Shown here piece after piece: positions 301 to 17,741 of a stretch of 64,000 bases of DNA. Numbering within the stretch: position 1 is the stretch's first letter; each line of letters opens with the position of its first letter. The stretch lies in contig JACOZN010000013.1 of the NCBI GenBank assembly GCA_016181305.1, positions 1-64,000 of the forward strand. The letters are read 5' to 3'. The translations under genes and the position numbers were made by a program. Source of the DNA: Candidatus Woesearchaeota archaeon (GTDB taxonomy: Archaea; Nanobdellota; Nanobdellia; Woesearchaeales; GW2011-AR4). The notes beneath the pieces are model-generated. The model worked only from the letters and a program-made list of their open reading frames with translations, was not told the DNA's origin and searched no databases.

Positions 301-2331
301 TTATGGACTGATTAATTCCTGCTCAAAAACAGCATTCTGCCCCAGTGCGCCTTTCAGGAACAAGCTTCCTGTGCTGTTAACATAGGCAACAACCTGCTCA
401 TCCTTGTCCTGTATGATGAAAGAATTTGGCGTTGGCGCTAATAGCTCCTGATTTTCAAGCAGAGAGCCCTTAATCATCATGTTGCCTTCGGGGTTTGTAA
501 TGGCTAAATTCAAGCCGTTTGTGGAGTTCTGCACTATGAAGTCATTTTCGTCTGCAAACGGCTCAATGTTCGGTATCAGGACTCCTTTTATTTTCACATT
601 GCCAAGGCTGTCAAATACAGCCAGCTTATTGTTTGATGTGTCTCTTATCTCAAAGAAATTGACATCTGTTGGCTTTATTTCCCCGCTTATATTAATCATG
701 AATATGTTTGATACTGCAAAGCTTTCAGAGTCATTTGCAATTATGTAAGTGAACCTTGCTCCATTCACATTCCTGTCAGGCACTATTGTTGCTGTTTCAT
801 TCTCGAACAATATCGTTATGTTGTCAGCCTTGAAATAGCTGTAGGCCAAAATATCCCCGTCAGGGTCTGAAAAGTATTTGGACAGATTGATTGTTGCATT
901 TCCGTTTACTAAAATGTTGACGCCGCTGAAATTCTGCAGCAATACGGGAGGCTGGTTAACCACATCTGATATAACAGAATACTTAATCCTGTCAATCCTC
1001 AAAATGGCATTGTCTTCTATTTCAAATACAAGGCTGTAGGAGCTTTTGTTCAGGCCGGTTAAAGCGCATGTTTCCAGGCAAATGCCTGAAAACAAAGTTT
1101 CCTCTTCAAAGAACTTGGCGCTTAAATTGCCCCATTCAGAGTAGTATATTTCAGATTTTGGGTTGTCAATGCTTGTGTTTACATCATAGTAAAGCACTTG
1201 CGCAGAAACAATGTTGTTGTGGGCAGCGCCATCCTTGCCGAACGTTGAGTAATAGACATCATTCCAGTTGCTGCTGGTTGGCAAAAGGCTCACAAATGCG
1301 CAGCAGTCATTGTTGCCATTGCACAAAGTTGTCAGTTTGTCGTCCTCAAAGCTGTAAATTTCCCACCTTGTGCATAATCTGCTTTTGTCGGCATCCCAGC
1401 TAAACAAAGAGTCTTCAGCCGTCAAGTCAACAACACCATTAACGCTTTCCTCGCCGTTGTCATTAGCATCATAAACAGTGCCTGATTTATAGGCAAGATT
1501 TATCGCTATGGTTTTTGCAGTTATATTGGTCTGATTTGTTATGTTCGTTATAGTCTCATTAATTGTCGGCGTGATATTCAATGTTTGGTTTATCGTCTCG
1601 TTTATCGGTATTGTTATGTTTATCGTCTCGTTTGTCTGGTTTATAGCTGGAGTTTCATTTAAAGGCAGCGTTATATTCGCTGCAACACCTGTTTGCTCGG
1701 CAATCACTATCAAATTAACAACCTGGCTTTTGCTGTCAACTCCGTCAGAAGCTGTGAATATTATTGTTGTGTTGAATTCTGTACCCAGTATTGGGGTTAA
1801 TGTTGCAATCTCGTCTACTATAGCAGCTGCAATTCCGTCAGCATCAGAGGCAGAATAAACCATGGCGTCATTATCGTCGTCTATAAACTGCTGCGACAAG
1901 TTTATCTGGGTTGTTCCATTTATTATAAACTCATTTGCTCCAACCCATTTCGGCTTTTTGTTTTTGTCCTTCTTTTCCCCGTCAACGACAAAGCCCGTTA
2001 TCAAGTTTGACCCGTTTGCTGCTGCCTTGGTCTCATTCAGCATTGCGCTGTCAAATATCAAATGCCTGATGCCGTTGCTTTCCAAGTACACTCTTGCTTT
2101 GCCGTAGTTTGTAATGCTGCCGTCTATACTGGCTGATTTCAAGTCCCCGATATTGCCCAATTGCCAGGTATAATTGCCGCTCGACGTGACAACCAAATTC
2201 AAGTCTTCTGTGTAGCTGAATTCTTTTGTTACAAAGCCGGTTATAGTCGGGCCAAGATAATACAGCCCAATACTTACTATAATCAATATAGCCAAAAGCA
2301 TCAATAACCACTTTTTATTGTAGTCTGTCAA
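301..2331 (-). CDS. Membrane-anchored surface protein with N-terminal TM, Asn-Thr-rich stalk and C-terminal repeats
   Basis: 676 aa ORF; N-terminal hydrophobic segment; three C-terminal F-I-x-D...IKG-type repeats. Confidence 0.75.
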   Translation of the reverse strand: MTDYNKKWLLMLLAILIIVSIGLYYLGPTITGFVTKEFSYTEDLNLVVTSSGNYTWQLGNIGDLKSASIDGSITNYGKARVYLESNGIRHLIFDSAMLNETKAAANGSNLITGFVVDGEKKDKNKKPKWVGANEFIINGTTQINLSQQFIDDDNDAMVYSASDADGIAAAIVDEIATLTPILGTEFNTTIIFTASDGVDSKSQVVNLIVIAEQTGVAANITLPLNETPAINQTNETINITIPINETINQTLNITPTINETITNITNQTNITAKTIAINLAYKSGTVYDANDNGEESVNGVVDLTAEDSLFSWDADKSRLCTRWEIYSFEDDKLTTLCNGNNDCCAFVSLLPTSSNWNDVYYSTFGKDGAAHNNIVSAQVLYYDVNTSIDNPKSEIYYSEWGNLSAKFFEEETLFSGICLETCALTGLNKSSYSLVFEIEDNAILRIDRIKYSVISDVVNQPPVLLQNFSGVNILVNGNATINLSKYFSDPDGDILAYSYFKADNITILFENETATIVPDRNVNGARFTYIIANDSESFAVSNIFMINISGEIKPTDVNFFEIRDTSNNKLAVFDSLGNVKIKGVLIPNIEPFADENDFIVQNSTNGLNLAITNPEGNMMIKGSLLENQELLAPTPNSFIIQDKDEQVVAYVNSTGSLFLKGALGQNAVFEQELISP

Positions 2332-2849
2332 TGTTTCATTCCTCTCTTCATTTTTACCCTGTCATACACCGTCCATATAGTCCTATCATCAAGGCGCAGC
2401 ATTAATGCAACTTCATGGTTTGAATAGCCTAAATCCTTGATAAACCCGACAAGGCTTTCCAGAGTTGAAAATTTCCTGCCTGCGAAAACAGAGACCGGAA
2501 TAAAAATTTCATTTGAAATCGAGCCAAAAGTAGACGGCATTTTCCTTGCAGCATTGTGGTATGTTGCCCAGATTGTCTTGCTGCTCCTGTTGAGCAGCCT
2601 TGCAATTTTTGCAAGCCTGAGCTTTTGAGCCTCTTTCAGATACTTGACAATGGCTTCAAGGGAGCTTAAGGCATCGTTGCCAAAAATCCCGATAGGAATT
2701 GCCACTTCTTTTTTTCCAAGGATTTCCTGCTCGGTAATCTCGTGCAGGCTTTTCAACTCATCAATAAAATAAGAAACCAGCTGAAGCTTGTGCTCTTTTG
2801 AAAGCCCGTTAAACCTGGAAATAATCTTAGCAGATTCACTCTCCATCAT
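2328..2849 (-). CDS. Tandem helix-turn-helix DNA-binding regulator
   Basis: 173 aa; two internal repeats IPIGIFG..SLEAIVKYLKE..IARLLNRSSKTIWATYHNA and IPVSVFAG..TLESLVGFIKD..VALMLRLDDRTIWTVYDRV. Confidence 0.65.
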   Translation of the reverse strand: MMESESAKIISRFNGLSKEHKLQLVSYFIDELKSLHEITEQEILGKKEVAIPIGIFGNDALSSLEAIVKYLKEAQKLRLAKIARLLNRSSKTIWATYHNAARKMPSTFGSISNEIFIPVSVFAGRKFSTLESLVGFIKDLGYSNHEVALMLRLDDRTIWTVYDRVKMKRGMKH

Positions 2850-2867
2850 TTTTAAGCTCCAATCTAT

Positions 2868-3079
2868 CTTATTATATAAGAATTTATATATAAATCTTTC
2901 TTTTAAGTTAATAAAAACTTGTTATGTAGGAATTTTATCCTATTTTATAGGTTTAAGCTTTCTTATAATTTTAGTATTTTTTCTTATTATATAAGATTAA
3001 TTTCTTATTATATAAGTAATATTCTTATTATATAAGTATATACTTCCTATTAAATAAGTAAAATATCCTATTATATAAG
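2868..3079. promoter_or_regulatory. Array of CTTATTATATAAG near-palindromes (putative operator array)
   Basis: Copies at 2868, 2983, 3004, 3024, 3046 (cctattaaataag) and 3067 (cctattatataag); last five spaced 20-22 bp. Confidence 0.7.
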
Positions 3080-3144
3080 ATAAAAAACTGATTGTTGAGC
3101 ATAAAAACATAGTTTATTAAACATTATAATTTCCAGATCTGAAA

Positions 3145-4059
3145 ATGAAGCACACAATTCAGGTAACCCTTGCCTTGGTTTTATTTTTCTTTCTGGCGCA
3201 GTTTACAGGGCTTCTCATAGTCAATGAATACATTGACCATAAAAAAACAACCGAGGCAAAAGCCATAGTAATGAAGCCGCTGCCATACGGCCTGGAAAGG
3301 CCTGAAGTCAAAAACCAGTCGACATCATTCTTGTACATAATAACAGCGATACTCATTGGAACAGGAATTATGCTGATTATTGCCAAGGCAAACATAACCA
3401 TAATATGGAAACTGATGTTTTTCGTTGCTGTTTCTGTCACATTATCGGTTGCGTTTGCGGCTTTCCTGAACGTCTATATTGCAGGCATTCTTGCAGTTGC
3501 AATATCAATTTTTAGGCTGTACAAGCCGAATATTGTAATCCACAATCTTTCTGAGATATTTATTTACGGCGGCATAGCTGCAATCATGGTAAACATCTTC
3601 AATTTGTTTGCGGCATTCATGCTCCTGATATTGATATCAATCTATGACTACATATCGGTTTTCAAGACAAAGCACATGATAAAGCTTGCAAAGTTCCAGA
3701 GCAAAGCAAGGGTTTTTGCCGGATTGTTTATTCCTTATGGCAAAGAAAAACCGGCTGGCAAAGAAATCTTGGGACGCGAGCCTGTTAAAGCGCAAAAATC
3801 TATGCCAAAAAGCTCTGTCGCTGTCCTCGGCGGAGGCGATATCGGCTTTACGCTGATTTTTGCAGGTGTTGTGATGAAGAGCCTGATGCTCAAAGAAACA
3901 ATACTGGCAGGATTCCTAAAGACATTGATAATACCAATTTTTGTAAGCATTGCTTTGCTGATTCTGCTTATTAAAGGGAAGGAAAACAAGTTTTATCCTG
4001 CAATGCCTGTGCTAAGCCTTGGATGCTTTTTGGGTTATCTGGCTGTTTTGGCTGTTTGA
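3145..4059 (+). CDS. Presenilin-like intramembrane aspartyl protease (A22/GxGD family)
   Basis: Multi-TM; YD motif (SIYDYISVFKTKHM), GxGD motif (GGGDIGFTLIF), PAL-like YPAMPVLSLG. Confidence 0.85.
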   Translation: MKHTIQVTLALVLFFFLAQFTGLLIVNEYIDHKKTTEAKAIVMKPLPYGLERPEVKNQSTSFLYIITAILIGTGIMLIIAKANITIIWKLMFFVAVSVTLSVAFAAFLNVYIAGILAVAISIFRLYKPNIVIHNLSEIFIYGGIAAIMVNIFNLFAAFMLLILISIYDYISVFKTKHMIKLAKFQSKARVFAGLFIPYGKEKPAGKEILGREPVKAQKSMPKSSVAVLGGGDIGFTLIFAGVVMKSLMLKETILAGFLKTLIIPIFVSIALLILLIKGKENKFYPAMPVLSLGCFLGYLAVLAV

Positions 4060-4095: not shown

Positions 4096-4371
4096 CATGG
4101 GAGGACTCTGCCGGGAAGCTAGCACTCTCCTGTCAGCGCAAATGTGCTTCAGGCGCGGTGAAGCTTTGGGAGCAGCCAAAGTTGTTGCAACTTAGTCTTG
4201 CTGCTGGCGTCGAAGCTCTGCCTTGTAGGACTTGTGCTTTTGAAAATCCGTAAGGTTCGGAAGAAAGCAGCGGTAATCTTGGGCATTGGTGCTTATGAGC
4301 CACAGAGTGGAGCTTGGAGCAAGGCAGCTAACTGCAATGGCTTTTGCCCATTTCTGAGCATGTCCTCCTAT
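4096..4371 (+). ncRNA. ffs: Archaeal SRP (7S) RNA
   Basis: Helix 8 signature GTAAGGTTCGGAAGAAAGCAGCGGTAA at ~4250-4275; terminal pairing gggaggac/gtcctcct; TATA-like atatttaaaa upstream; T-rich end. Confidence 0.9.
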
Positions 4372-14859: not shown

Positions 14860-14972
14860 TGCGGGGGAAGGGATTCGAACCCTCGCACCCACTTAGGGAC
14901 TAGCACCTCAAGCTAGCGCATGAAGTCTGAAAGCAAAAATGCCTTCAATTGACCAGGCTCTGCCACCCCCGC
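14860..14972 (-). tRNA. tRNA-Leu(GAG) with putative ~27 nt D-loop intron
   Basis: Acceptor GCGGGGG/CCCCCGC; anticodon arm CTAGC-TTGAGGT-GCTAG; T-arm GAGGGTTCGAATCCCTT; extra TGAAGGCATTTTTGCTTTCAGACTTCA between D-loop and TGC. Confidence 0.85.
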
Positions 14973-17555: not shown

Positions 17556-17741
17556 GACTGCGGTAGTTTAATGGCAGAATAAGCGGCTGTGGAGCAACCT
17601 TTTCTTTTGCAAAGAAAAGCTTGACCAAAAGAAAGGCACTCACGAGGTGGTGGGGTAAACCCCACTGGGATTAAGCATTACTTCATGATGGGAAGGTTGT
17701 GTAGAGCCCGCTTGGCGCGAGTTCGATTCTCGCCCGCGGTC
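17556..17741 (+). tRNA. tRNA-His(GTG) with putative ~114 nt intron at 37/38
   Basis: G-1:C73, acceptor ACTGCGG/CCGCGGT, anticodon stem AGCGG/CCGCT with loop CTGTGG-, T-arm GCGAGTTCGATTCTCGC; inserted segment ~17593-17706. Confidence 0.88.

Follow-up and report, generated by a model that had tools for sequence, protein, structure and literature searches.

Gene order and operator sites in the window

The window, a stretch of 64,000 nucleotides, is the start of a 132.6-kb contig in a metagenome-assembled genome (MAG) of a Candidatus Woesearchaeota archaeon (1.07 Mb, 78% complete). Near its left end, a gene for a 173-aa protein with two helix-turn-helix (HTH) units is followed on the same strand by a surface-protein gene. 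Short repeated sites, here called operators, fill the region between the HTH gene and a divergent presenilin-family gene. The features are as follows.

301 to 2331, minus strand: surface-protein gene, 676 aa, whose start overlaps the stop of the HTH gene; N-terminal transmembrane segment (TM; residues 9-27), ITGFV motif and Big_9 domain
2328 to 2849, minus strand: tandem-HTH regulator, 173 aa, no named family
2868 to 2880, minus strand: gene-proximal operator, CTTATATAATAAG on the HTH coding strand, exact motif, in the order TATA box, operator, start codon
2883 to 2894, minus strand: putative TATA box TTTATATATAAA of the HTH gene, with a conserved gaaaga before it
2918 to 2930, minus strand: weaker array site, CCTACATAACAAG (= CTTGTTATGTAGG), added by the profile from relatives
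2939 to 2951, minus strand: array site, CCTATAAAATAGG (= CCTATTTTATAGG), found by the profile from relatives
2961 to 2973, minus strand: degenerate slot of the 21-bp lattice, CTAAAATTATAAG, under the profile score threshold
2983 to 2995, minus strand: array site, exact motif
3004 to 3016, minus strand: array site, exact motif
3024 to 3036, minus strand: array site, exact motif
3046 to 3058, minus strand: array site, CTTATTTAATAGG, two mismatches
3067 to 3079, minus strand: array site, CTTATATAATAGG, one mismatch
3145 to 4059, plus strand: presenilin/SPP-family intramembrane protease, the divergent neighbour, conserved in group A (see below) and not at paralogous arrays

Exact copies of CTTATTATATAAG start at 2868, 2983, 3004, and 3024 in the window, and the array sites from 2983 to 3067 are spaced by 21, 20, 22, and 21 bp from start to start. 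Using a profile built from relatives, eight scoring sites and one degenerate slot were placed between 2868 and 3079. They form a near-continuous 21-bp lattice from 2918 to 3079, with the proximal site at 2868 standing apart. An earlier note on this DNA had described five copies at 20-22 bp, an isolated copy upstream of the HTH gene, and a variant at about 2938. The coordinates bear out this description, the variant is real (CCTATTTTATAGG at 2939-2951), and the array is larger still. The note had also taken the arms CTTAT and ATAAG to be symmetric, and this point is corrected here. Every copy in the window has the same orientation, the two halves differ, and the consensus on the HTH coding strand is CTTA[T/C]ATAATA[A/G]G. 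The window operator has a direction and lacks the symmetry of a simple palindrome.

In the region 2850-3144, six sites have no more than two mismatches; 3000 dinucleotide shuffles gave 0.26 on average and never more than 3. The genome-wide search that the earlier note had suggested returned four exact 13-mers in the 1.07-Mb, 78% complete genome, every one at the array, which is the opposite of a scatter across AT-rich loci.

The two HTH-like repeats reported in the adjacent 173-aa protein were also confirmed, at about residues 50-103 and 116-168, with the recognition helices NRSSKTIWATYHNA and RLDDRTIWTVYDRV. In the AlphaFold model, which is weak (mean pLDDT of 63), an N-terminal helical part is predicted to precede two units, each composed of a strand, a short helix, and a tri-helical HTH. 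Pfam Sigma70_r4_2 was matched by 18 of 22 members (best E = 5.9e-10), with the window protein alone scoring under the curated cut-off, and a local structural match to RcsB covered 47 columns at an rmsd of 1.0 Å. Judged by these matches, each HTH unit resembles the sigma region 4/LuxR HTH fold. No full-length structural match was found for the tandem arrangement, and searches of NCBIfam, PHROGs, and, by sequence, the PDB with the single 173-aa protein gave nothing useful. Relatives were not found in viral contigs, and no description of the family was found in a literature search. The family occurs in about two thirds of the sampled genomes of the order; it is unnamed and spread widely through Woesearchaeota and one or more sister orders.

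Conservation, phasing, and promoter position of the arrays

Most genomes of the genus have an orthologue of the 173-aa protein (67-84% identity), and paralogues at about 35-50% occur across the family and order. A protein tree split the tandem-HTH members into groups A to D. The comparisons below draw on MAGs that are incomplete, with start codons that are often uncertain and clusters that are not fully independent.

Upstream of 21 group A members, 134 sites were counted (6.4 per region, compared with 0.44 in shuffles), of which 126 lie on one strand and 8 on the other. Adjacent sites are spaced by 20, 21, or 22 bp in 16, 40, and 14 cases, respectively, that is, in 70 of about 105. The distances between pairs of sites fall into steps of 10.4-10.5 bp, odd turn numbers included. 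At a period of 10.5 bp, R was 0.756 (383 pairs), while the jitter null did not exceed 0.173, and 90% of the distances deviate by no more than 0.2 turn from a whole number of turns. Each of the 18 group A loci having at least three sites is phased. In the genus genomes searched, every exact CTTAYATAATARG lies at the HTH locus except one stray copy (G003:C31).

Paralogous HTH genes have arrays with related motifs upstream; the group B paralogues carry TACTTAYATAATAT in 61 sites with a 60:1 strand bias and spacings of chiefly 21 and 53 bp. Several relatives have more than one array per genome, each at the promoter of an HTH-surface gene. Blind EM motif discovery in the upstream regions of groups C and D returned low-complexity motifs only, and the group C motif was then read off short intergenic stretches. 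A recognisable array was absent from several group D and order-level loci within the stretch searched, partly because start codons are uncertain. In several genomes, a group D locus (for example L052 9917, L055 9273, and L047 6071) adds another HTH-surface pair, which lies downstream of the surface gene of group A; a TATA box followed by AGTATA-type repeats, without a clear array, was seen at group D loci. Three group C promoters (L094, L051, and L064) have group B-type sites farther upstream, and on one contig (G011:C28) group B sites reach up to 3 kb upstream. From the shared sites at group B and C loci, including L050 and L094, it is possible that neighbouring paralogues cross-regulate.

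In the window, the order is TATA box (2883-2894), operator (2868-2880), GGAG (2857-2860), and ATG (2849). Most group A loci have a conserved gaaagatTTATATAtaa 3-6 bp upstream of the gene-proximal operator, and group C loci keep the same order, with a TATA box and then TACATATATAATAAGTA directly ahead of the start codon. In most loci, operator sites overlap the core promoter, as predicted from sequence. Since the proximal site lies between the TATA box and the start codon, it occupies the position of a repressor, and the sign of regulation is probably negative.

A leader of 100-200 nt separates the promoter from the HTH ORF at six group A loci (L053, L054, L100, L105, L012, and L016). These leaders share an inverted repeat, GTTGGGGG...CCCCCAAC, that is conserved; the leader is missing from the window and from its closest relative. 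An Rfam search of the hairpin leaders gave no family, and they may be regulatory RNAs or small mobile inserts.

Surface-protein partners and the half-site code

The genes downstream of HTH genes overlap them or start no more than 20 bp away in 65 of 67 cases, with -4 as the commonest gap, and 55 of the 67 encode an N-terminal TM. The downstream proteins reach at least 2500 aa, several being cut by region ends. Where domains were found, they were Big_9, Cadherin_5, Laminin_G_3, and glycine-rich. Almost every HTH gene is translationally coupled to a gene for a membrane-anchored surface protein.

In seven genomes of another order (families f106, f116, and f93), the tandem HTH is the C-terminus of a protein of 1400-3500 aa. 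The fused HTH is preceded by a hydrophobic stretch and a basic cluster, and the stretch passes the hydropathy cut-off for a TM in two of the seven. Four fusions were read from the start, where they have a TM and a TGF motif in addition to a cytoplasmic stretch of about 85 residues. One of these four can be aligned with the window surface protein across the TM and the motif (E = 3e-12). In the window, the HTH and surface proteins are separate chains, and about 8 residues of the surface protein are predicted to be cytoplasmic. Given the coupling, the fusions, and the homology, the regulator and the surface protein very probably function together. Candidate fusions of an HTH to a giant protein in four further genomes (G276, G136:C32, G165, and G143) were dropped; masked runs had been read as open frames. 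Some relatives are longer members of 320-345 aa or fusions of two tandem pairs with four HTH units (L074, 11661-12671; L093, 4127-5092; L275; L262). These proteins should read longer or double operators.

Where the neighbour of a genus-level group A HTH gene was seen, it is nearly always a divergent presenilin gene. The same layout occurs in a genome of another family (G139), and G040 has a linked copy. Presenilin is near-universal (126 of 145) and mostly unlinked outside group A, so its co-occurrence is uninformative. In the seven fusion genomes (87-95% complete), SPP was undetected in three and unlinked in the other four. The earlier note had suggested autoregulation of a divergent pair; arrays also follow HTH genes that have no adjacent presenilin, and control of such a pair as the core function is weakened. 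On this evidence, presenilin is a conserved neighbour in the window lineage rather than a core part, and Notch-like release by presenilin is an attractive but speculative idea.

About 200 relatives were compared overall. For the recognition code, 158 proteins (122 clusters at 60% identity) were compared with their own upstream 300 bp. Word-count votes were used for the half-sites because per-locus EM over all loci was noisy. When HTH1 has R before TIW, TARGT is favoured over TARGA by 32 to 3; when it has K, the ratio is 1 to 10 (p = 7e-7). The crossed control, HTH2 against the same proximal half, was null (p = 0.27). With R in HTH2, TACYTA is favoured over TTCYTA by 45 to 9, and with K the ratio is 1 to 9 (p = 1.5e-5); HTH1 against this distal half was null (p = 1). 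This double dissociation of the covariation assigns HTH1 to the gene-proximal half and HTH2 to the distal half. In addition, the choice of T or N after R tracks that of CTTA or CATA (p about 0.03, with HTH1 as with HTH2).

The half-site words were picked post hoc from the training data, except in the hold-out and the blind prediction. Because they had been chosen after seeing the data, the rules were written down, and unseen regions were then fetched (40 regions, with a homologue in 39). The HTH1 rule gave 7:1 versus 1:6 over all hold-out cases (p = 0.010) and 5:0 versus 1:5 in those without close training relatives (p = 0.015). The T/N rule pointed in the same direction (p = 0.083), and the HTH2 R/K rule had too few cases (one K cluster). 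Mirror cases agree with the code. In L136, HTH1 has RNIW and the proximal half reads ..AATGTA. The full palindrome TACTTACAnTGTAAGTA occurs at several members whose two HTHs both carry DRTIW or ERTIW (L080, L083, L129, L130, and L132). When HTH1 lacks TIW (..[AG]VTYRNA), TARTAT tends to occur on the proximal half, and the broader category is weakly significant (p = 0.011). These data may point to a modular code, a more speculative reading, in which ..RTIW would read TACTTA, ..RNIW TACAYA, and ..KTIW TCYTA. If the code is true, the substitution K91R in HTH1 would move the preference from ATAATAAGA to ATAATAAGTA.

The fusion genomes were used for a blind prediction. Six of the seven have RTxW in HTH1 and an HTH2 of the RN type. 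The site TACAYANNNNNTARGTA was predicted at the start of each giant ORF, and the coordinates were recorded beforehand. Exact matches numbered seven in the seven genomes, all at predicted starts (7/7) and in the predicted orientation, and the exact site was present at four of the six fused genes. The site in G451 lies a few bases past its rounded range, G379 has a one-mismatch site about 200 bp outside the range given for it, and G431 has no predicted site. The search also covered G371, which has a K-type HTH2, and gave no match there. The sites nearest to the fused genes end at or close to the ATG with a TATA box upstream, and their spacings are 51, 52, and 64 bp. Operators of fused relatives from another order could thus be predicted in advance, which shows the predictive power of the code.

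Proposed regulation and comparison with known systems

The array, its phasing, polarity, and conservation, its promoter position, the half-site covariation, the gene coupling, and the fusion are established at the level of sequence. With high probability, these features are explained by an autoregulatory operator array of the adjacent tandem-HTH gene, tied to the surface protein. The earlier note had proposed a phased array with cooperative autoregulation; conserved across the genus and present at paralogues, the array is upheld, with cooperative autoregulation as its likely mode. From these features, we predict that the protein binds the sites physically and cooperatively, that it represses, and that the surface protein, through its state, exerts control. 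For direct binding by the encoded protein, the prediction draws on the covariation and the blind prediction. One protein molecule would span one operator of ~17 bp directionally, with a spacer of about 5 bp. The N-terminal HTH1 would read the gene-proximal half (canonically ..TAAGTA) and the C-terminal HTH2 the distal half (canonically TACTTA..). We infer one molecule per site; alternatively, the protein may bind as a dimer in which each chain uses one HTH. The array places its copies along a single face of the DNA, two helical turns apart, which would allow cooperative loading of the proteins. Occupancy of the proximal operator would block RNA polymerase or initiation factors, and the regulator would thereby hold down the production of both itself and the translationally coupled surface protein.

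Some features of the array have other conceivable origins. The motif contains TTATATAA, which is near an archaeal TATA box, and lies in an A- and T-rich region, so that low complexity or reused TATA boxes might mimic an array by chance. However, none of the 3000 shuffles reached the observed count, orientation and phase are kept across 21 loci, and many variants (CTTACATAATAGG) are not TATA-like; chance AT-richness is rejected by the shuffles, the conserved orientation, and the phasing, and its probability is negligible. The earlier note had also mentioned an iteron-like replication or partition site. The HTH protein would then bind the iterons of an origin or a centromere used in partition, and directional short repeats at a 21-bp spacing beside a DNA-binding gene do resemble iterons and ParR-type sites. 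This reading is disfavoured by the several arrays per genome in relatives, each tied to an HTH-surface promoter, and by the position of the sites at TATA boxes. Among the genes identified, no replication or partition gene lies beside the arrays, and no clear skew reversal was seen at the array, although a short contig end makes this a weak test. We consider iterons very improbable.

Two proposals that concern the mode of regulation are more plausible, each of them still rather unlikely. The distal array may act as an enhancer that recruits TFB/TBP or RNA polymerase to the HTH-surface or presenilin promoter, with the proximal site giving negative feedback once the protein is abundant. The majority of sites are indeed on the upstream side of the TATA box, the side on which archaeal activators bind, and group A arrays occupy the gap between two divergent genes. 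However, a proximal site between the TATA box and the start (most of group A, and group C) or at the ATG (the fusions) normally represses, and paralogous loci need no divergent gene. The other proposal, a tentative one, extends the autoregulatory array and is compatible with it: external binding or cleavage of the surface protein would set array occupancy, as in a Notch-like or ToxR-like module, with the divergent presenilin/SPP protease as a possible cleaving enzyme for the surface partner in the window lineage. The seven fusions with their hydrophobic stretch and basic cluster speak for this coupling, as do the N-terminal TM and TGF motif in four of them, the homology of one to the window surface protein, and the divergent presenilin at nearly all group A loci seen and in G139. 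Against it stand the near-universal presence of presenilin, its unlinked or undetected state in the fusion genomes, the TM ahead of the HTH that passes the cut-off in only two of seven, and the separate window proteins with their short predicted cytoplasmic part. Together with the autoregulatory array, these elements might describe a large surface-receptor transcription family in Woesearchaeota and a sister order, a speculative reading that would combine fused or coupled tandem HTHs, phased arrays at their own promoters, the modular half-site code, insulated paralogues, and feedback from the surface state.

The closest functional parallels are Cbp1/Cbp2 and Ss-LrpB, and membership in either fails on the features tested. 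Cbp1 and Cbp2 are CRISPR-repeat binding proteins of Sulfolobales and Desulfurococcales (PMC10883916). Like the tandem-HTH proteins, they are small archaeal proteins with duplicated HTH units in one chain along a directional site, and many regularly spaced copies are bound with an effect on transcription, the binding being predicted in our case (PMC10883916). Unlike them, Cbp1 carries three HTHs and covers long CRISPR arrays, whereas the operators described here are set at a 21-bp pitch upstream of their own gene and are linked to a surface protein. Profile A2 found no Cbp match in the PDB at E ≤ 1, and Foldseek gave a weak match only (2lvs, E = 0.12). A CRISPR-like unit length is absent, the sites being 13-17 bp at a fixed pitch of ~21 bp upstream of HTH genes. 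Ss-LrpB of Sulfolobus has three sites in its own promoter and a pair with a 20-bp centre-to-centre distance elsewhere (PMC4046817). It is likewise an archaeal regulator with several regularly spaced sites in its own control region, where it binds cooperatively (PMC4046817). In contrast, it acts as Lrp-family dimers on 15-bp palindromes, whereas the present system has two different HTHs, up to 10 directional sites, and surface coupling; an Lrp HTH plus RAM domain was not among the Pfam matches listed.

Sigma-70 region 4 and the LuxR-GerE HTH share the fold of each repeat, but the present proteins have two units per chain, each after a beta strand and an 'IPxSIF' motif, and, unlike sigma-70, they have no sigma core and an archaeal promoter context. 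The fused relatives resemble ToxR/CadC and Notch-type receptors in joining a predicted extracellular part, a putative membrane segment, and a predicted intracellular DNA-binding domain; by sequence, seven relatives combine a DNA-binding domain, a TM, and an extracellular domain in one chain, the TM being weak in five. The HTH of CadC and ToxR is N-terminal, whereas the fused relatives have a C-terminal tandem HTH, a giant extracellular part, and predicted autoregulatory operators. No evidence was found for proteolytic release of the fused HTH.

The DPANN archaea of this group are mostly uncultured and are thought to depend on other cells. To our knowledge, almost nothing is known about surface control in them. 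The analysis yields a target family, predicted operators for many of its members, and a code linking residues to bases that is open to in vitro tests without the organism. If the surface coupling is true, it would be a new archaeal wiring of cell-surface proteins to transcription.

Archaeal SRP and RNase P RNAs were present, and the archaeal SRP RNA (4099-4369, plus strand) lies directly 3' of the presenilin gene. Two tRNA matches, at 14860-14972 (minus strand, 113 nt) and 17557-17741 (plus strand, 185 nt), were both missed by ARAGORN; from their lengths, they probably contain introns.
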